In this document: piece after piece, positions 8,072 to 27,128 of the stretch
How the letters are laid out: each line of letters starts with the position of its first letter
Numbering within the stretch: the first letter of the stretch is position 1
From: a virus
Length of the DNA: 27,128 bases
Reading direction: 5' to 3' (one strand)
Virus record (IMG/VR): IMGVR_UViG_3300036985_004266
Span: 1 to 27,128 of that record
Position numbers and translations under genes: made by a program
The notes under the pieces: model-generated
Database searches by the model: none
Seen by the model: only the letters and a program-made list of their open reading frames with translations
What the model was told of the DNA's origin: nothing

Positions 8072-9621
8072 TGAAGCCATTCAAGCTTGTAGACTCAGTT
8101 GTTGTTGATCAACCTACCCTCCCGTCTATCAGGAGTCAAGCAATTGATCAGGTAGCTGGGGACAAAAATCCACGACTTCGCATTACCATGGACGCGACGC
8201 ACTCCGGTGTTATTACTAACAAAAGAGTTTACCCGGGTGTGAAAGTGAGAGACGGGTACAAGAGCTTCTTTAGCAAGAAGAACGGAGGAGATTCTGAGTA
8301 CGACAAGCCGGTACTTAGACACCACTCTAGCTACGAAGATCCCATAGGTCGCATATTTGGCGCTACTTTTACTCAACTTAGACAAGGTCAAGATTTTGAG
8401 TATGACTATAAGATGCCAGATGACGAGGGCGGCAGAGGATCAGGAGTTGTGACCGTAGAAGCTTTAATATCTGATCCAGATTCCATTCAAAAGATAATAG
8501 ACGGCAGATATCTAAGTGTTTCTGTCGGCCATAGTACTGACACTATGGATTGCTCTGTATGTGACAAAAATATATGGAAATGTGCCCACATGCCCGGTGG
8601 CTGGTATGACAAAGAGGGCGAAGAGTGTTCTAAAGATGACGAGGGCAGTAAGCTCTGTTATTACATAACAGGCACAATGACCTACAATGAGGCCTCTTTC
8701 GTCAATATGCCCGCACAACCTCCCGCAAAGCTAATAAACTTCAAGTGGGAAGACTGTAATAAAGAAGTAGTCTTCAAAAAAGACTCAATCCTCATAGAGT
8801 CTATGTCTAGAGGTAAGAAGGCCCTGGTTCGTGCCTTCGAACTAACAGATGACACAGGGGATTATAACCTTTTGAAAGGAACCTTTGCAAGCTCCAATCA
8901 AAAGACTGTTATAGATATGGCCGGTCCTGACGCTTCTCCTGCCTCGGGCTCAAAGACTTCTGACGAGACTAGACATGTCCATCAGACAAAAATTGACGCT
9001 CCCAAAAAGGACAGCTCTATGGATTCGGTGAAGACCGAAATCAAATCTACTAAGGAAGCTAACAAAATGGACAATGAAATACAGAACAAGGACGGCAAAC
9101 TCGATCCAGCCGTTCTATCTGCATCACTATCCGCACTGACTAAAGAGCGCGAGCAGATGCAGGCCGATATTGCCACGGCAACAGGCAAGATTTCTACACT
9201 AGAAAAGACCCTAGAGTCAAAGACATCAGAAATAGACAGACTGACCAAAGCTCAGTCTGACATGCAAGTAGAAATGTCTAAGGCCCTTGCTACAGCACTG
9301 GCATCAGTGCGAGTTCAGCTCAAAAAGCCGGATTCAGCTGGTCTGGATAGCGCAGAAAAGTTTACTGAATATTCAACCAACCTGTCTAAGCGCTCGGTAG
9401 AGTCTTTAAGAGACTCACTAAGTGACTTGATGCTTGAGCTATCTAATCAGAAGCCAGAGCTGACAGAAAAGAAGACTACTGATACTAAAGAAATTGTCGC
9501 AGACTCGAAGGTCTTAAACCCTTCTATACTCAGCGATAAGAATACAGTCCAAGCTGGAAGCAAGAAGCCTTCCAAGACTCAGGACACTAAAAAGCCTGTA
9601 GATCAGGCTTTCAAAGATTAA
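8071..9621 (+). CDS. Prohead protease fused to scaffold-like C-terminus
   Basis: The start is GTG at 8071, sharing its G with the portal stop (TAGTG), with GGAG upstream. Residues 35-225 match the HK97-type (S78) prohead serine protease pattern: an N-terminal strand with NKRVYPG, candidate catalytic His at H84/H85, Ser in RYLSVSVGHST (S149 or S151), and the acidic MTYNEASFVNMPAQP (E207). Directly after the serine is an insert with C161, C164, C171 and H173, a likely zinc knuckle. Residues 226-330 are a linker. Residues 333-516 are charged, Lys/Ser/Thr-rich, with a predicted coiled coil at about 350-415, as in scaffold proteins. The protease would cut scaffold and capsid arms during maturation. 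The assignment of individual catalytic residues is by pattern only. Confidence 0.87.
   Translation: MKPFKLVDSVVVDQPTLPSIRSQAIDQVAGDKNPRLRITMDATHSGVITNKRVYPGVKVRDGYKSFFSKKNGGDSEYDKPVLRHHSSYEDPIGRIFGATFTQLRQGQDFEYDYKMPDDEGGRGSGVVTVEALISDPDSIQKIIDGRYLSVSVGHSTDTMDCSVCDKNIWKCAHMPGGWYDKEGEECSKDDEGSKLCYYITGTMTYNEASFVNMPAQPPAKLINFKWEDCNKEVVFKKDSILIESMSRGKKALVRAFELTDDTGDYNLLKGTFASSNQKTVIDMAGPDASPASGSKTSDETRHVHQTKIDAPKKDSSMDSVKTEIKSTKEANKMDNEIQNKDGKLDPAVLSASLSALTKEREQMQADIATATGKISTLEKTLESKTSEIDRLTKAQSDMQVEMSKALATALASVRVQLKKPDSAGLDSAEKFTEYSTNLSKRSVESLRDSLSDLMLELSNQKPELTEKKTTDTKEIVADSKVLNPSILSDKNTVQAGSKKPSKTQDTKKPVDQAFKD
9067..9621 (+). CDS. Candidate nested scaffold protein from an internal start
   Basis: An in-frame ATG at 9067 (M333 of the protease-scaffold protein) is preceded by AAGGA at 9052-9056, ten bases away. 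Starting here would give a separate 184-residue protein made of just the coiled-coil scaffold part, ending at the same stop. This is the arrangement known for lambda C and Nu3. The sequence shows a plausible start exactly at the domain border. That it is used is inference. Confidence 0.4.
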   Translation: MDNEIQNKDGKLDPAVLSASLSALTKEREQMQADIATATGKISTLEKTLESKTSEIDRLTKAQSDMQVEMSKALATALASVRVQLKKPDSAGLDSAEKFTEYSTNLSKRSVESLRDSLSDLMLELSNQKPELTEKKTTDTKEIVADSKVLNPSILSDKNTVQAGSKKPSKTQDTKKPVDQAFKD

Positions 9622-10580: not shown

Positions 10581-11984
10581 ATGGAAGACATTAACATTGA
10601 CGCAACGTTTACAGAAGACCAGAAGAAAGTGTACCTAGCTCTGCACAAGCAGATAAAGGACGCAGTAAACGAAGGTATTGACAAAAAGCTTTCCTCGAAA
10701 GAGGGCGCAGACGATGAGTTTATAGACAACTCAGATACTGCCAAATTGGCAAGAAAAGATCGTAGACGCTTGGACCAGATGACAAAGATCTGGAAAAACA
10801 ACGGCTACGTGGACGGTGCTAGAGAGAAGATCAAGTTTGAGGATCTATTCCGCAAGGACATGGATCTCACAAACGAGATTCGCTCGTCTGGTAACGATAA
10901 CTTCAGCACGGATCATCCTTTGATGATACCGCGCACGATCTCCGTTCTGGCCAGAGAGGCAATTGAGCCAAACCTGGTCCTGACTAGCCTGCTCAATCGC
11001 ATTAACTACAGCCACGGCACGAGAATAGTATTCCCGTCTTGGGGTGGTGCAATGCAAGCTGCAGACCTAGCAGAGGGCGAAGAGTATCCAGAAGGCTCCA
11101 TGGAGCTGGCTGGCCAAGTAGAGGCAACGATCGGAAAGTCCGGTATCGCACTAAAGATAACGGAAGAGACGATCAGATACAGCCTTTACGACATCGTTTC
11201 GATGCAAGCCAGAGCAGCTGGTCGCGCAATGGCGAGACTAAAGGAGAAGAAGGTGGCAGACCTGATAACTGCTGATTACGGTACTACGGTCATTGACAAC
11301 ACAACGACAACGTACCGTTCATCGAGTGGTCGAGATGGGACTGGTGCTTACAACGGCACCCTGACCTTAGACGACCTTTACTACTGCTACGCAAAGATGG
11401 TTGATCGCGGATTCACCCCGAATACGTTGATCATGCATCCGTTTGCATGGCAGATATTTGCTCAAGAGGGTATCTCGAGAGCATTCGGCTTCCATAACGG
11501 CATAAGCCCACTAATGTGGCAGCTCCCTATGGGTTCGCCAGGTAACGCTCCTCAGTGGAGAGCAGGTGGTCTAAACCAGAACACCTATGTGTCCCAGCCT
11601 CAACAGCTGGCCACTACGATGACGAATGTGCCTTCGCCATTCCCAACTTCGTTCAGCATAGTCATCAGCCCTTACATGCCGTACAACGCTTCTACTGACC
11701 GCACGGACATAGTCCTATGCGATCGGAATGAGCTTGGACTGCTGATAGTTGATGAAGAGCTCACAACGGATGAGTGGATGGATCCAGCCCGCGACATCAA
11801 GAAGATCAAGATGCGCGAGCGTTATGGCCTTGCAGTGCAGAACGACGGCAAGGGCATAGGCCTATTGAAAGGTATCGAGATCGCCAAGTCCTTCGACTTT
11901 GCGAACAACTACACGGTCACCTACTCGGGTTCACAGCCTGCTGCAGTTGATCTCAGCACGGATAATGCAAACACCGTTCGCTGA
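10581..11984 (+). CDS. Major capsid protein, HK97 fold
   Basis: It has 467 residues with the layout of HK97-type capsid proteins. There is a charged helical N-arm (about 1-110) that may be cleaved or act as a scaffold domain, then IPRTISVLAREAIEPNLVL (117-134), where the folded core begins. The E-loop region reads AEGEEYPEGSMELAGQVEA (164-182), followed by the spine helix (about 195-230, ending in RLKEKKVADLI). A beta-rich P and A domain region follows. The start is fixed by AGGAG at 10571-10575, five bases before the ATG. Codon use is shifted to ACG, ATC and CGC, consistent with very high expression. A terminator-like hairpin lies just downstream at 12008-12042, so the capsid block probably forms the end of a transcript. 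Confidence 0.93.
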   Translation: MEDINIDATFTEDQKKVYLALHKQIKDAVNEGIDKKLSSKEGADDEFIDNSDTAKLARKDRRRLDQMTKIWKNNGYVDGAREKIKFEDLFRKDMDLTNEIRSSGNDNFSTDHPLMIPRTISVLAREAIEPNLVLTSLLNRINYSHGTRIVFPSWGGAMQAADLAEGEEYPEGSMELAGQVEATIGKSGIALKITEETIRYSLYDIVSMQARAAGRAMARLKEKKVADLITADYGTTVIDNTTTTYRSSSGRDGTGAYNGTLTLDDLYYCYAKMVDRGFTPNTLIMHPFAWQIFAQEGISRAFGFHNGISPLMWQLPMGSPGNAPQWRAGGLNQNTYVSQPQQLATTMTNVPSPFPTSFSIVISPYMPYNASTDRTDIVLCDRNELGLLIVDEELTTDEWMDPARDIKKIKMRERYGLAVQNDGKGIGLLKGIEIAKSFDFANNYTVTYSGSQPAAVDLSTDNANTVR

Positions 11985-12007
11985 TAAGTAGTGTGTAGAA
12001 ACTGATA

Positions 12008-12042
12008 GGGGCGGTCCTGGTAACCTGGGGCCGTCCCTTTCT
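12008..12042 (+). terminator. Terminator-like hairpin after the major capsid gene
   Basis: GGGGCGGTCC (12008-12017) pairs with GGGCCGTCCC (12028-12037), ten pairs with two G-T wobbles, over a ten-base loop. TTTCT follows. The stem is strong but the T-run is short, so termination may be partial, which would let some transcripts continue into the next gene. Confidence 0.65.
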
Positions 12043-15606: not shown

Positions 15607-15634
15607 TTGACTTGGCCTAGGGAGGACGTATAAA
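15607..15634 (+). promoter_or_regulatory. Possible sigma70-type promoter overlapping the terminator
   Basis: TTGACT (15607-15612) and TATAAA (15629-15634) are separated by 16 bases. The -10 box lies in the left arm end and loop of the terminator hairpin, so a transcript starting some seven bases later would contain only the right arm and would escape termination. It would drive the neck genes from 15673. This is pattern evidence only. Confidence 0.35.
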
Positions 15635-15658
15635 ACTATATGTCCTCCCGAATTTTTT
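15620..15658 (+). terminator. Strong intrinsic terminator
   Basis: GGGAGGACGTAT (15620-15631) pairs with ATATGTCCTCCC (15638-15649), twelve pairs with one G-T wobble, over the loop AAAACT. It is followed by GAA and six Ts (15653-15658). It would end transcripts coming from the 1142-residue gene. Confidence 0.85.
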
Positions 15659-21577: not shown

Positions 21578-22264
21578 ATGAGTAACAAAGGTTTAGCTCC
21601 ATCGGGCTCAGGAAAGTCTGGAGGCTCTTTCTCAAAGACTTATAATAGCTTTTCGGGTGTCGACATGATCGCTACCTTCGGAGGCAAAGTAATAGGAGAG
21701 CTGCAAGGTATCTCCTATACAATTCAGAGAGAAAAGGCACCAGTTTACACCATGGGAGACGCGGATCCTAGATCCTTCTCTCGTGGCAAGAGAGGCATTG
21801 CCGGCTCAATAGTGTTTACAGTATTTGATCGTTCTGCTCTACTAGAAGTCATGAAGGATAGACCGTATGTAGCTAATCGCTACTCTATTCCACAGGGCTT
21901 TGAGATAGCAGACGTCAATACTGACTCAATTGAGATCCTTCCAGGAATCATATCCCCGGTAGTAGGCGCGTCGTCTCCAACAATATCACGTATAGCTCTA
22001 GATAAGGTATTAGCTAAGCCAAACTATCTAGACCAGGTTCTACCATTCGATATCGTCCTCACTGCAAGCAATGAGTACGGCTCTGTGGCAAGAATGATGA
22101 TCCACGGTGTCGAAATTATGAACGTCGGTTCTTCGATGTCCATAGACGACATCACCACGGATGAAGCGTGTACTTTCATAGCGACTGCAATAACACCTTG
22201 GTCAAACCATGGATTCGTTAAGATAGGAAGCGATGGCAAGACAGCTACATTCCTCAACGGTTAA
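21578..22264 (+). CDS. Tail tube protein
   Basis: This is a 228-residue subunit of the inner tail tube. After a Gly/Ser-rich arm (1-27) it has FSGVDMIATFGGKVIGELQ (25-43), then the conserved block REKAPVYTMGDADPRSFSRG (51-70) with KRGIAGSIVFTVFDRSAL (71-88). This is a pattern I know from tube proteins of SPO1-like and other contractile-tailed phages. The C-terminal half holds DQVLPFDIVLTASNEYG (about 150-166) and a beta sheet (MMIHGVEIMNVGSSMSIDDI). It lies directly after the sheath, as usual, and is followed by a terminator. Confidence 0.88.
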   Translation: MSNKGLAPSGSGKSGGSFSKTYNSFSGVDMIATFGGKVIGELQGISYTIQREKAPVYTMGDADPRSFSRGKRGIAGSIVFTVFDRSALLEVMKDRPYVANRYSIPQGFEIADVNTDSIEILPGIISPVVGASSPTISRIALDKVLAKPNYLDQVLPFDIVLTASNEYGSVARMMIHGVEIMNVGSSMSIDDITTDEACTFIATAITPWSNHGFVKIGSDGKTATFLNG

Positions 22265-22284
22265 TCTTATAGAAACGTAGGTCT

Positions 22285-22320
22285 GGGGGAGTAGGAAATC
22301 CCTACTCCTCCTTATTTTTT
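22285..22320 (+). terminator. Intrinsic terminator after the tail tube gene
   Basis: GGGGGAGTAGG (22285-22295) pairs with CCTACTCCTCC (22301-22311), eleven pairs with one G-T wobble, over the loop AAATC. TTATTTTTT follows at 22312-22320. It would separate the abundant tube transcript from the genes below. Confidence 0.85.
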
Positions 22321-22332
22321 GACAGGAGCATT

Positions 22333-23061
22333 ATGGAAGAAAAGTACTACAACTACCTCTCTAAGATAGATCAAAGAGTGCTAAACACCAATAGAGCATC
22401 TAGCGAGGTTTATTCTGGAGCAGATATAGAAGCAATTATGTACCTTCCTCTACTTACCAAAGCTTCACTGAGCAATGGGGAAAGAAAGAAGTTCAAAAAA
22501 TTTGCTGATCTACAGACTATGTCTATCTCATCAACTAGATCTGTGTCCCCGGTTAGAGTATTGGGCAGATCAAGTGCCATCGGATATACACGCGGGGCAA
22601 GAACGTTCGCAGGCTCCCTAATATTTGCTACGGTATCCAAAGACCCTTTTATAGATGTGGCAGACTCAAGTGTATCGGAAGGCGCAGTAAACGCTTCTAC
22701 ATCCCTAATAGCTGACCAGCTTCCTCCGTTCTCCATAGTTATAACAGCTGGCAATGAGGCGGGTGCCGTTGGTGTGCAAGTGGTGCACGGTATAACCATA
22801 ACAAACTATGGTACAACGTATAGTATTAATGACCTTTACACTGAAACTACCTACACGTATGTGGCTACTGACGTGGTTCCCTTAAACGCTGGGGTGGCTG
22901 TTCTTAGTGATCCAACTAAGCTACCGTCTAACTACAACTACAACTCTATCTCCCATCTCCTGGAGGAGTCCCTGGGCAAAACTTATGGAACATTCGAAAG
23001 TGCTTTTGATAGATACCTTCGAACAAGTGCTTTTGATAGATACCACAGAATAAATCCATAA
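22333..23061 (+). CDS. Tail tube-family paralog 1
   Basis: The start ATG at 22333 has AGGAG five bases upstream, just after the terminator. The 242-residue protein shares the layout of the tube protein: SSTRSVSPVRVLGRSSAIGY (66-85) with TRGARTFAGSLIFATVSKDP (86-105) lines up with the tube block at 51-88 (V-x-x-x-G-R/D-x-x, then RG-x-R-x-x-AGS-x-x-F). Later, DQLPPFSIVITAGNEAG matches the tube's DQVLPFDIVLTASNEYG very closely. It lacks the tube's Gly/Ser arm and instead has a charged N-terminal helix. The C-terminus carries a nine-residue tandem repeat (223-240). A minor tube, tube-tip or tail-baseplate junction protein is likely. The exact role is unknown. Confidence 0.72.
   Translation: MEEKYYNYLSKIDQRVLNTNRASSEVYSGADIEAIMYLPLLTKASLSNGERKKFKKFADLQTMSISSTRSVSPVRVLGRSSAIGYTRGARTFAGSLIFATVSKDPFIDVADSSVSEGAVNASTSLIADQLPPFSIVITAGNEAGAVGVQVVHGITITNYGTTYSINDLYTETTYTYVATDVVPLNAGVAVLSDPTKLPSNYNYNSISHLLEESLGKTYGTFESAFDRYLRTSAFDRYHRINP
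22998..23044 (+). repeat. 27-base in-frame tandem repeat
   Basis: AAGTGCTTTTGATAGATACC occurs at 22998-23017 and again at 23025-23044, offset by 27 bases. It encodes SAFDRYLRT then SAFDRYHRI at the C-terminus of the tube paralog. The near identity at DNA level suggests a recent duplication. Confidence 0.9.
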
Positions 23062-23071
23062 AAGAGCAACG

Positions 23072-23848
23072 ATGATAAACCCAACCTATATCTATTCTAC
23101 TGCCTCCAACGTTGCGGCGTTCATTAATGGTTATCATATAGAGCAAGCCTACGGATTTAACTTCAAAGAGAGCGTGCCAAAAGTACCTATCTACGGGTAC
23201 AATGACTATAAATACAGTAAGGCGGTGACTGGAAAAGGTATAGTCCAAGGGATTCTAGTAGTCAATTTTATGTTCCCAGGATACCTAAATGGAGTAATAG
23301 AACAGAGCAAAGGTGCCTATGTTCCTAAGCTCTATAACTATAAAATAGGCCACGGAGCTAGTACTGAAAAAAGTCACCAGGAAAGCCTTTTTAATAAGTT
23401 GAAAACTGAGATACCACCAAACACTCCCGAGCTAAAGACTGCCAGAGCAGAGTACATAGTAGACACTATGTTCTCAAAGACAGGCAGAACTCTGGGCGAA
23501 TCTATGGCTTTGGAAGCCAAGCGGCAGATCCTTATAGCCGCAATCAAGAGTACATTCTCAGAGCTTTTACTTTCGTCTTTCTCTGACTTTGGTAACGGCG
23601 AATCTGCGTCTTTGCATGAAGTTATGAACAGCCCGCTAGACGCAAAGCAGCATGCCAGCGAAGGCTGTAGAATTGATCTCTATTACCAGGATCCAGATTT
23701 TGTGAACTGGTACGTAACATTTAACAACGTATACTTCACTGAAGTATCACAAAGCGCTAGCCAAGCTGGTGCAGAAGGCAGTTCAGAGCCACTATACGAA
23801 ATCTATCAATTTATAGCTAGCGACCGTAAGATTAAAATTCTAAGGTAA
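23072..23848 (+). CDS. Tail tube-family paralog 2
   Basis: This is a 258-residue protein. Residues 17-66 (FINGYHIEQAYGFNF, then KESVPKVPIYGYNDYKYSKA, then VTGKGIVQGILVVNF) follow the same order as the tube block: hydrophobic strand, R/K-E-x-x-P-x-x, a Y-G turn, a basic G-x-x-x-x-G, then a hydrophobic strand. A helical, charged insertion (about 95-165) is absent from the tube protein. The end returns to strands (YQDPDFVNWYVTFNNVYFTE). A junction or initiator protein of the tube, or a baseplate hub component, is plausible. It is followed by TAA-AAT-ATG into the first chaperone, in the same frame. The paralogy is weaker than for the preceding gene. Confidence 0.6.
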   Translation: MINPTYIYSTASNVAAFINGYHIEQAYGFNFKESVPKVPIYGYNDYKYSKAVTGKGIVQGILVVNFMFPGYLNGVIEQSKGAYVPKLYNYKIGHGASTEKSHQESLFNKLKTEIPPNTPELKTARAEYIVDTMFSKTGRTLGESMALEAKRQILIAAIKSTFSELLLSSFSDFGNGESASLHEVMNSPLDAKQHASEGCRIDLYYQDPDFVNWYVTFNNVYFTEVSQSASQAGAEGSSEPLYEIYQFIASDRKIKILR

Positions 23849-23851
23849 AAT

Positions 23852-24226
23852 ATGGAAGATCAAGAGATAATAGCGCTCATAGCGCAGGTAAAAAAGAACG
23901 GACAACGTGTCTTTAAGGCAAAGATCGCTGGCATAGAATGCATCTACAGATCTCTAGGACGAAAAGAGTTCAGAGACTTGCAGAAGCATCTAGCAGAAAA
24001 AACTGAAGCAATTAGACAAAATTCAGAGCCTGCCGTTTTAGAAACTAAGTTGGGACTTCTTAAAGAAGAAGGGGAAGAGGAATTGTTTATCAAAGCTATC
24101 CTATACCCGAAAGCGAAATCATCGCTAGACTTGGTATCCTTACCAGCCGGTATCATACCATCCGTAGCGGAACTAATAATGGGTGCTTCGGGATTCGGAG
24201 AGGACGTTACGCCGCAGGAAATATGA
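23852..24226 (+). CDS. Tail assembly chaperone 1
   Basis: This is a small protein (124 residues) in the slot between the tube genes and the long tail gene, where G-type tail assembly chaperones lie. Its features fit. FKAKIAGIECIYRSLGRKEF (21-40) is a short beta unit ending in a Y-R-x-L-x-R-x-E-F phrase, followed by a charged helix. Then come an EEELFIKAILYP segment (75-86) and SLPAGIIPSVAELIMGASGF (96-115). Chaperones of this kind coat the tape-measure protein during tube assembly and are not in the virion. AAGG precedes the ATG. The stop TGA (24224-24226) is followed by GAT and the GTG start of chaperone 2 in the same frame. Confidence 0.7.
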   Translation: MEDQEIIALIAQVKKNGQRVFKAKIAGIECIYRSLGRKEFRDLQKHLAEKTEAIRQNSEPAVLETKLGLLKEEGEEELFIKAILYPKAKSSLDLVSLPAGIIPSVAELIMGASGFGEDVTPQEI

Positions 24227-24229
24227 GAT

Positions 24230-24862
24230 GTGTCTGATCATATCGTAGGCTCAAATAACTTCAGTTTTCTGCTGCTCGACCTTCGAGAGGAGTTCGAGCA
24301 GCTTTTTTTATATACAGTACTAGGCAAGCGTCTGGTCTTTAGGCCCCTTTATCTATCTGAGCTAGAGTCCATAGCCGCCCTGATTGACAAGGTTCCTGAG
24401 TTTGAGCTTGATGAGTGGGTCGTCACTCGCACATTCCTAGGAGGTGAGACTGGACTCTCATTCTTATTAGATGACGCACCAGCGGGCTTTGTAGCCTCAA
24501 TAGCAGCATCCCTGATGGCAAAGTCTAAGCCTGGCGATATTAAGGCTGTGTCCGATAGGCTGACGCAGGAAAGGAGTAGGCTAGAAACTGACGGAGGTCT
24601 GTTTGAGAGCACTATGCTAATGGGGGTTGGCAATATCCTAGGAAAATCTTATAGAAAAATAACCGCTAGAGAGCAAAGTAGGTATCTAGCCTTAGCTGAG
24701 AAAGTACTAAAGACCGAGCTTACCGTAACAAAAGTCAAAGAAGTTACAGGCAAGACTAGTAAAAAGAGAGCAATAGATCCCGCTACAGCAGCAATGCTGT
24801 CAGCACAGGTAGCTGACAAACCAGATTTTGAGTCCGACAACAAGAACCTTAGAGCCCTCTAA
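24230..24862 (+). CDS. Tail assembly chaperone 2, paralog of chaperone 1
   Basis: The start is GTG at 24230, with AGGA at 24216-24219, one codon after the stop of chaperone 1. Upstream ATGs at 24223 and 24228 are in other frames and stop quickly. The protein has 210 residues. KRLVFRPLYLSELESIAALI (33-52) and WVVTRTFLGG (63-72), followed by APAGFVASIAASLMAKSKPG (83-102), match the order of chaperone 1 (YRSLGRKEF, then IKAILYP, then LPAGIIPSVAELIMGASGF), so the two appear to be diverged copies. The C-terminal 80 residues are Lys/Thr-rich and may contact the next gene's product. A strong terminator-like hairpin lies inside codons 14-27. It overlaps the following gene by one base or more (TAATG). 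Confidence 0.68.
   Translation: MSDHIVGSNNFSFLLLDLREEFEQLFLYTVLGKRLVFRPLYLSELESIAALIDKVPEFELDEWVVTRTFLGGETGLSFLLDDAPAGFVASIAASLMAKSKPGDIKAVSDRLTQERSRLETDGGLFESTMLMGVGNILGKSYRKITAREQSRYLALAEKVLKTELTVTKVKEVTGKTSKKRAIDPATAAMLSAQVADKPDFESDNKNLRAL
24271..24309 (+). terminator. Intrinsic terminator inside chaperone 2 coding sequence
   Basis: GCTGCTCGA (24271-24279) pairs perfectly with TCGAGCAGC (24294-24302). After one C-T mismatch, CTTC (24281-24284) pairs with GGAG (24289-24292, one wobble), closed by the loop GAGA, a GNRA-type tetraloop. Seven Ts (24303-24309) follow the stem directly. The hairpin lies 41 to 80 bases inside the gene. All parts of a classic terminator are present. Whether it works while ribosomes are translating this gene is not known. 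Confidence 0.7.
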
Positions 24863-27128
24863 TGGCGGAAGAAAACTACATTAACCAGCGCAGGGAGCAG
24901 GAAGCACAACAGCAAAGGCAAAGTAACCTTAGCTGGCTCCTTCCATGGGCCGCTGGTATTGGAGCTATAGCTGTAGGCGCTAAGCTACTTAAGAGTGGCT
25001 TATCTGAGCAGGGCAATCTTGTAGCTAATATGCTACACTTCTTAGGGCATCCTACAAGCCTTAAGACTCAAGTAGGTAAGCTAGCCAACACTGGCGCCTC
25101 AACCCCATCTAGCGGAACGCATGGCATTCGTCATTTATTTAATGCTTCTTACTCTGTAACTAGAAATGAGCTGCAGCTAGGGCCCATAGATCTTATCCGT
25201 GATGTTGCTAGCAGCATGGATATTCTTGGTAGAGTTTCTTCTAGAGGCGTGAGAGAGTCCCTGTCAGGCAAGCTAACAGAGTATATTAATAGAAAGCATG
25301 TCAACTTTGGTAACCATAGCAGCTTCTTCTCTAAGGATTTAGAGAGAGTTACAATTGGGGAAGTACTAGATAATCAAGAAACTTGGTACGAAGTTATAGG
25401 CAGGAACCAATGGAATTCCCTAAGGCAAGGCGTTGAAGCGGGCCTTGTTGGGAGATCCTCAGCGCTAGATAAGAACATCTACAAAAACAGTAGTGGCGTG
25501 ATCAAAGATACTAGACTTAGAAGTGTCTTTATGAAGCCTGTGCAAGACTTGAACTATGACTACGGTCTAGTTCCAAAAATTGACGTGTTCGGTCAGTTCA
25601 ATGTGTTCCAATCCTTATTCGGTGAAAGGGCTGGAGTTGGCGTTCTTGGCTCGTCCAGGACCTTCAAGGGTCCTAGGTTCTTTATTGATGGTAACATATT
25701 TGGGTACTCCAGGAATTCTGGTGGTGTGATAGAGGAAAAAACACTTGCTACAAATCAGAGGCTTAGAAGAATAGGAGACAAGCTCGAGCCCATCCGTGCT
25801 GCAAAAGAAGGAAGAATTGGTCTACAGCTTAAAGTTAGGACGGGCTGGCTTGGAAGATTAGTATCAGCGGCAGAAGGAGCTACTGGAGTTGGCACTAGCT
25901 TTTCCAGTAGAAGATCATTTATTAGTAAGTGGTTTGTGGATCCTGTAGCTAAGTTCAATGCGTTAAGGAAAGGACAAGCAGTAATAGCAGAGACAGGAGG
26001 AAGCAGTTCTGACTATGCTATGAAGCTGGTGGATCAGATCTCGGGTGCTGAGTTTCCAGAGTTTGTAACAGAGAGCCAGGCCACTAACACAATTACCAAC
26101 ATTGTCAATTTTGGCGATCTCAAGTGGCACCAGAAGTTATCTGCGCTTTTCCTAGAAAGCCCTAGGCACGCAGTTGTTAGAAACCAAGTAAGAGAAAGAT
26201 TTGAGATGTCGCCCGCTGGGGCAGCTAGGCTAGGCCCAGAGGATTTTATAGGATCCAAAAAGGGGTCTGGAGGGTTTACCATAGACAGAGGTAACTTACC
26301 CGACACAGTAAGTAACCGTACTAGAGGTGAGGCACTAGAGCGCCCAAGATACTATGCTGCGCCAGCCAGCCGTCTAATCCCTGGTGTAACATCTACTCGG
26401 GACTTTGCTAGTTACCTAGCTTTCAGAACTTCTCATCTAGCCAGTGACACGTTGCTTGGAGTCAGCTACGCTCCAGCGGCTTCCATGGTCGGAAACCTAG
26501 CCAGGGTGGCAGCTGTGCCAATGGTCTACGGGGCTATGCTTGAAGGCATAGAGTACGGAGACTACCTAACTGAGAAGCTAACGGGCATATCGCCCAAGAA
26601 AGCTGTAGCAAGCATATACGCAGATCTTAGAGTAGGGCAGCAGTTCTTACGTGAAGCTTTTGGTATTCAACAAGCCTTGGCAAGTTCTGAAGAAAGCTAC
26701 CCAGGTTCTGTAGACAGCGGCTTGGGTTTCTTAGCTAGAAACGTTGCAGCACCCGTAGGAGTGTTCTCATTTCTATCTAGAAGGACATCTATTGGAAAGG
26801 CTGCTGCAGCGGCTGGGGCTATCTTTGGATTAATAGGAGGAGTAGATCCTGGACAAACTTCTCAGGCTCTACAAGAGGAATATTCTGGAGAGAGAAAGGT
26901 AGCTGTTAGAAAAGGTAGGTTCTGGGGTATGGGTACGGCCCCATTTGAAGGTGGAGACGTTGCTAGGTATGACTATAGCTGGTATCACAAGCTTATGTCA
27001 GACTATCAATATAAATCAGTTTACGGGTCAAAGGATGAATACTTTAACTACCACTCTAACTTCTTTGGGGTGCCACTGCCCACACCCACTAACTTATTAG
27101 GCCTAAAGAATTTACTTAATCCTTATAG
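24862..27128 (+). CDS. Very large tail or virion protein in tape-measure position, 5' part
   Basis: The ATG at 24862 shares its A with the stop of chaperone 2 (TAATG), and the frame stays open to the window end: 755 codons plus two bases. The gene after the tail chaperones normally encodes the tape-measure protein, but no long coiled-coil or repeat pattern is seen here. Instead there is a polar, Gln-rich start, a hydrophobic helix (about 24-43), a mixed Gly/Arg/Ser-rich body, further hydrophobic helices (about 531-560 and 645-661), and then a distinctive block: VRKGRFWGMGTAPFEGGD (682-699), YDYSWYHKLMSDYQYKSVYG (703-722), FFGVPLPTP. I recognise no enzyme motif. A tape-measure protein, or a large internal or ejected virion protein, are the main options. 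The ribosome binding site is weak, so it is likely translated by coupling. Confidence 0.8.
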   Translation, partial: MAEENYINQRREQEAQQQRQSNLSWLLPWAAGIGAIAVGAKLLKSGLSEQGNLVANMLHFLGHPTSLKTQVGKLANTGASTPSSGTHGIRHLFNASYSVTRNELQLGPIDLIRDVASSMDILGRVSSRGVRESLSGKLTEYINRKHVNFGNHSSFFSKDLERVTIGEVLDNQETWYEVIGRNQWNSLRQGVEAGLVGRSSALDKNIYKNSSGVIKDTRLRSVFMKPVQDLNYDYGLVPKIDVFGQFNVFQSLFGERAGVGVLGSSRTFKGPRFFIDGNIFGYSRNSGGVIEEKTLATNQRLRRIGDKLEPIRAAKEGRIGLQLKVRTGWLGRLVSAAEGATGVGTSFSSRRSFISKWFVDPVAKFNALRKGQAVIAETGGSSSDYAMKLVDQISGAEFPEFVTESQATNTITNIVNFGDLKWHQKLSALFLESPRHAVVRNQVRERFEMSPAGAARLGPEDFIGSKKGSGGFTIDRGNLPDTVSNRTRGEALERPRYYAAPASRLIPGVTSTRDFASYLAFRTSHLASDTLLGVSYAPAASMVGNLARVAAVPMVYGAMLEGIEYGDYLTEKLTGISPKKAVASIYADLRVGQQFLREAFGIQQALASSEESYPGSVDSGLGFLARNVAAPVGVFSFLSRRTSIGKAAAAAGAIFGLIGGVDPGQTSQALQEEYSGERKVAVRKGRFWGMGTAPFEGGDVARYDYSWYHKLMSDYQYKSVYGSKDEYFNYHSNFFGVPLPTPTNLLGLKNLLNPY

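Follow-up and report, generated by a model that had tools for sequence, protein, structure and literature searches.

A conserved terminator-like hairpin in the early codons of the second of two chaperone-like genes in a phage tail operon

We analyzed a stretch of viral DNA of 27,128 bases (hereafter the window) and found a terminator-like hairpin inside the coding sequence of TAC2, the second of two small tail-chaperone-like genes. Judged by comparison with related phages, the hairpin is under selection beyond what the encoded protein requires. As far as sequence can tell, it probably acts as a partial intrinsic terminator, which would lower TAC2 and tape-measure mRNA relative to TAC1.

Results

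The window, from a virus record, carries genes for terminase, portal, major capsid, sheath, and tail tube, and belongs to an uncultured contractile-tailed phage. Three consecutive tail-tube-like genes (21578-22264, 22333-23061, and 23072-23848) are followed by TAC1 (23852-24226, plus strand, 124 aa, ATG start), TAC2 (24230-24862, plus strand, 210 aa, GTG start), and a long tape-measure-like ORF (24862-27126, plus strand) that is still open where it runs off the window end. The long ORF is syntenic with the large "structural protein" of phage KLEB27-3 and, where a relative has it closed, measures 1430-1448 aa. In the isolated phages KLEB27-3 (Bacillus) and MTATph1 (Moorella), the arrangement is similar: the sheath gene, tail-tube genes, a pair of small genes, and one very large gene. 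KLEB27-3 has three annotated tail-tube genes in series at the position equivalent to 21578-23848. In the window, the first two tail-tube-like genes match the same PHROG (9206), labelled "major head protein" though syntenic with tail-tube genes.

We gathered relatives through sheath and tube protein searches. A DNA-level search of phage records with the window, a TAC2 protein search of viral contigs and phage records, and a scan of genome contigs with the tail-tube alignment gave no match; searches with the TAC alignments added 0 contigs to clade A (defined below), and a literature search found no paper on KLEB27-3. In two relatives, L017 (8589-8888) and L019 (8602-8841), TAC1 and TAC2 are separated by an extra small ORF, which is not the same in the two phages. 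In L007, a homing-endonuclease-like ORF follows the sheath gene from 10596, where relatives have a tail-tube gene.

TAC1 sits between the tail-tube paralogues and the tape-measure-like gene and is conserved in relatives, and the TAC pair occupies the place between tail tube and tape measure in the window, the relatives, KLEB27-3, and MTATph1. The AF2 model of TAC1 (pLDDT 85) has the element order H-E-E-H-H, and the N-terminal part of the TAC2 model has the same order, followed by a C-terminal extension. Profile comparison of TAC1 with TAC2 (hhalign) gave an E value of 4e-4 but a probability of 34%. Neither protein had a Pfam match, TAC1 alone obtained one PHROGs match, weak and unnamed, and a PDB fold search returned nothing significant for either model (the best TAC2 match, 3fgx at E 2.9, is not evidence). 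From position, the G/GT-like layout, putative TAC1-TAC2 homology, and the similarity of the predicted folds, we infer that TAC1 and TAC2 are tail assembly chaperones. In all seven clade A phages, the deduced start codons are GTG for TAC2 and ATG for TAC1 (the GTG of L013 was read from the sequence). This difference appears to be a second sign, again at sequence level, of lower TAC2 expression.

The hairpin lies at 24271-24302 on the plus strand (dG -20.7, about -21 kcal/mol). Together with seven Ts, GCTGCTCGACCTTCGAGAGGAGTTCGAGCAGC spans 24271-24309, corresponding to TAC2 nt 42-80 and codons 14-27. The stem consists of nine pairs, one C-U mismatch, and four more pairs (one of them U-G), closed by a GAGA loop; a sequence-only reading had described this anatomy and its coordinates, and every detail of it was correct. 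The T-tract (24303-24309, plus strand), the predicted 3'-end zone, is formed by the codons CTT TTT TTA, the L-F-L of a conserved QLFLY motif. Thus, the window has what is looked for in an intrinsic terminator: a stable G+C-containing hairpin with a U-tract immediately 3' of the stem. The TAC2 N-terminus is conserved across the hairpin (LLDLRE..EQLFLY), so the region is translated, which places the hairpin within the gene and not upstream of a wrongly called start.

A 61-nt segment folded at -21.9 kcal/mol, versus -10.3 +/- 2.65 in dinucleotide shuffles (z -4.4, 0/200). With the protein held fixed, none of 200 whole-gene codon shuffles and none of 5000 codon-usage draws folded as well as the window hairpin. 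A scan of the window found 24271-24309 to be the sole intragenic plus-strand terminator-like site at dG <= -15; three other sites reach dG <= -20, each of them intergenic. A stock terminator scanner missed the hairpin because it allows no mismatch in the stem, and Rfam gave no match at E <= 1 for 23800-25000.

We looked for the hairpin in the relatives. Seven phages, which we call clade A (the window, L002, L003, L005, L006, L009, and L013), carry it at homologous codons. The stem uses the same 12 codons, colinear in 7/7, yet its sequence differs: it reads GCTGCTCGA... in three phages and AAGCTGTTCC... or AAGTTGTTCC... in four, with GAG replacing AAG in L013. We redrew the codons of each phage from its own usage, keeping the protein fixed. 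The number of redraws (of 5000) that folded as well was 0 for the window, L002, L003, and L009, 2 for L006, and 6 for L005 and L013. In L006, a C-G pair has become U-A through synonymous changes on both sides (CTG to TTG, CAG to CAA), and another stem pair varies as C-G, U-G, or U-A within the clade. Four clade A members had 100% of cells paired, versus 25-52% when the alignment was slid. Covariation shuffle tests on the clade A alignments were not significant, these alignments of 4-7 sequences having too little power. Comparison of related phages had been proposed as a check on the hairpin, and it bore the hairpin out: the stem is kept beyond protein need, with synonymous compensatory changes in clade A.

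A neighbouring clade B (L017, L018, L020, L022, and L068) has another TAC2 hairpin, placed some 35 nt deeper in the gene at codons for GL...RPL. Here, five covarying pairs showed double changes (7 cells; 0/500 shuffles reached this), 92% of cells were paired versus 22-62% when slid, and 0-6 of 5000 redraws with the protein fixed folded as well.

The U-tract is more variable than the stem. It is poor in L013 (d-score -10) and L009 (+2), and four phages (L009, L013, L018, and L022) have no more T than expected from their codons, since the QLFLF codons supply much of the T-tract. L018 retains the clade B hairpin (8943-8990) with compensatory changes although no T-tract follows, which may reflect another role or decay.

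We next consider where the hairpin lies relative to ribosomes. Work in E. coli (PMC4824070) showed that an upstream stop codon within about 27-30 nt represses a terminator. When the terminator was set 30 bp inside the next ORF, translation cost it only ~10% of its efficiency, since the newly started ribosome still lags behind. The window hairpin begins 44 nt after the TAC1 stop and 42 nt after the GTG. Clade A phages have spacers of 31-50 nt behind the TAC1 stop, and their hairpins begin at TAC2 nt 31-48; those of clade B begin at nt 76-79, so that starts in both clades fall within nt 31-79 (12/12). By analogy with E. coli, when genes are only 3 nt apart, early TAC2 would be the place past TAC1 that lets a terminator function; the tight packing of the genes would explain why the hairpin lies in early TAC2 codons.

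The same numbers bear on a translation-sensing attenuator, in which ribosomes starting at the TAC2 GTG block the hairpin and termination occurs only if TAC2 is poorly translated, much as at pyrL; read-through would then report on TAC2 initiation. The hairpin is wholly coding, it closely follows a GTG that trails the TAC1 stop by 3 nt, and pyrL-type terminators are repressed by ribosomes (PMC5021804). However, repression is only ~10% in the zone where all 12 hairpins start (PMC4824070), we recognised neither leader-peptide-like stall codons nor an alternative antiterminator pairing, and related phages place the element between genes. We therefore consider translation sensing unlikely. The idea that ribosomes on TAC2 prevent the hairpin from folding, raised when only this DNA had been read, lost ground: the hairpin starts farther past the TAC1 stop than the ~27 nt that a terminating ribosome reaches, and it lies within the first 100 nt of TAC2 (PMC4824070).

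Is the element specific to this part of the operon? We scored the interval from the TAC1 end to 130 nt into the tape-measure-like gene (TMP) in 52 related phages. A hairpin plus T-tract at dG <= -15 was present in 25/52, versus 4/52 and 5/52 in equal-length flanks and 5/52 on the minus strand; because the genomes are related, these counts are not independent events and overstate independence. The other 27 genomes had no element passing the cut in this interval. Strong hairpins with at least five T in eight occurred 10 times at the TAC2 start versus 0-1 in controls. Strong hairpins with T<=3 tails were not enriched there (18 versus 10-19).

Under whole-gene synonymous shuffles, the first 180 nt of TAC2 were significant in 11/31 cases. 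The other genes gave lower counts: 1 for TAC1, none for tube3 or sheath, and between 3 and 5 for TMP, tube1, and tube2, two of the tube2 cases being intergenic hairpins included because starts were miscalled. A further 24 loci, two of which duplicate earlier contigs, gave 5 for TAC2, 0 for TAC1, and 4 for TMP.

These counts also bear on the possibility that the hairpin is an RNA processing or stability element, a nuclease site or 3' barrier that would make TAC1 mRNA more stable while polymerase seldom terminates there. Retention of the hairpin despite a poor or absent U-tract (L013, L018) would fit such a role. Yet only hairpins with T-tracts are enriched at the TAC2 start, not those without, and the intergenic counterparts in relatives resemble classic terminators. 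This makes a processing or stability element rather improbable.

The position of the element differs among lineages. It lies inside TAC2 in clades A and B and L111 (and, beyond the 52, in L155), and between TAC1 and TAC2 in KLEB27-3, where an ordinary intergenic terminator-like hairpin at 11031-11059 of locus L055 separates the two genes, and in L124 (beyond the 52, also in L144, L148, L150, L151, and L154). In L086-L097 (e.g. L086 8135-8167), a strong element, often followed by a long T run, stands between TAC2 and the tape-measure gene. Shared function with drifting position is, on these sequences, the simplest reading of this placement. Because the element of L086-L097 directly precedes the tape-measure-like gene, TAC2 would there be on the high-expression side. 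Hairpins also occur early in the tape-measure-like gene, 50-130 nt in (L106 8003-8037, L136 8831-8860, L036 9537-9580), and these are unlikely under synonymous shuffling.

Other hairpins lie further upstream in the window. Strong intergenic terminator-like hairpins follow the first tail-tube gene (22279-22317, plus strand; also in L010, L012, L013, L015, L020, and others), the major capsid gene (12007-12038), and a 1142-aa ORF (15620-15649). With counterparts in several relatives, their sequences suggest a stepwise attenuation of the whole structural operon. The hairpin after the main tail-tube gene, often in the same genomes, fits an expression staircase down the operon.

TAC1 and TAC2 are separate genes, as had been noted for the window: they are two ORFs whose frame relation varies among relatives and which no frameshift links. 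In the window, the TAC1 stop and the TAC2 start share one frame (24224-24232, TGA GAT GTG), as they do in L002 and L003 (TGAGATGTG), so readthrough would fuse the two proteins there. We rejected such readthrough on the frames; the shared frame is not kept in L005, L006, and L009.

The frames likewise speak to transcriptional slippage or -1 frameshifting at U UUU UUA, stimulated by the hairpin and yielding a second product. A hairpin followed by T7 resembles the stem-loop slippage sites of Penno 2015 as cited in PMC5009743, and the heptamer is in frame in the window, L002, and L003; yet L005, L009, and L013 have lost it, the hairpin lies 5' of the slip site and not 3', and both other frames are closed after 2-21 codons in 7/7 phages (within 11 in the window) with no shared extension. 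With the alternative frames closed and nothing downstream shared, such products are very improbable. Hardly more credible is a mere by-product of the protein, in which the stem comes from chance pairing among the K/L-L...Q-L-F codons and the T-tract is simply QLFLF: this conserved motif explains most of the T-tract, but in none of the seven clade A phages did more than 6 of 5000 protein-preserving redraws fold as well, as few did so in clade B, and controls in other genes were negative.

Discussion

Taken together, these results point to partial termination within TAC2. We propose that polymerase coming from the tail-tube genes would transcribe TAC1 and then enter TAC2. At 24303-24309, a fraction of the transcription complexes would release, while the remaining polymerases would continue through TAC2 and the tape-measure-like gene, leaving TAC1 in excess over TAC2 and tape measure. 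With the TAC1 stop 44 nt upstream, a ribosome that terminates there would not reach the hairpin, and one starting on TAC2 would usually still be behind the polymerase when the hairpin is made. Termination at the T-tract, its efficiency, and its purpose are what we infer; the conservation of the hairpin beyond the protein, the combination of hairpin and U-tract specific to this part of the operon, and the terminator-like element of relatives in the same interval support partial termination. The sequence-only reading had already suggested partial termination giving more TAC1 than TAC2 and tape measure, and comparative evidence argues for this part of it; its proposal of ribosome blocking is less supported. 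The U-tract counts against the attenuator where it is weak (L009, L013) or missing (L018). Moreover, termination at maximum efficiency would deprive the tape-measure gene of transcription, which calls for read-through, antitermination, or an undetected promoter; a sigma-70 promoter scan of the plus strand found none in 24310-25888.

A broader reading would make the element one case of transcription attenuation between two duplicated chaperone genes that sets the chaperone ratio in this family of contractile-tailed phages, its site wandering by lineage and, in packed operons, falling in the first ~100 nt of a coding region, a blind spot of transcription-translation coupling, where synonymous changes compensate. 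The positions it would take up are the TAC1-TAC2 gap, early TAC2, the gap before the tape-measure gene, and the start of that gene. We hold the chances of this reading to be about even.

In many tailed phages, the chaperone ratio is set by ribosomal frameshifting (G and GT), a textbook case of recoding. The programmed frameshift of lambda yields a 30:1 ratio (PMC5009743). As in lambda, a short and a longer chaperone are encoded upstream of the tape-measure gene, and the short one is expected in excess. Unlike in lambda, the two are separate genes with no fixed frame relation and no open trans-frame, and the ratio would come from transcription (and the GTG start) rather than from recoding. The element also shares with the stem-loop slippage sites (Penno 2015, as cited in PMC5009743) a hairpin directly 5' of a T-tract in coding sequence, but it has no usable alternative frame downstream of the T-tract.

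Attenuation within structural operons has parallels. Archaeal operons contain internal termination sites, intra-operon partial terminators that set product ratios (PMC10450193), and RNA sequencing of the SPO1-related Listeria phage CKA15 mapped intrinsic termination sites downstream of both the tail-tube and the tail-assembly-chaperone genes (PMC12282133). The mapped sites of CKA15 lend credibility to the attenuation model (PMC12282133). In both cases, as here, a terminator-like element within a structural operon follows genes with products required in excess. The CKA15 site follows a gene, none being stated to lie inside one, whereas the TAC2 element is intragenic, shows compensatory synonymous changes, and is predicted from sequence. 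In construct W48 (PMC4824070), lambda tR2 sits 30 bp inside an ORF, which likewise puts a terminator in the first 100 bp of a gene that closely follows another. That construct was engineered, whereas the TAC2 arrangement is natural and conserved.

To our knowledge, conserved functional terminators within coding sequences have rarely been documented. The isolated relative KLEB27-3, a Bacillus phage, makes the element directly testable. If it works, the element would be a transcriptional answer to an assembly problem otherwise met by recoding, and these phages would provide natural examples of where in a gene terminators act despite translation.
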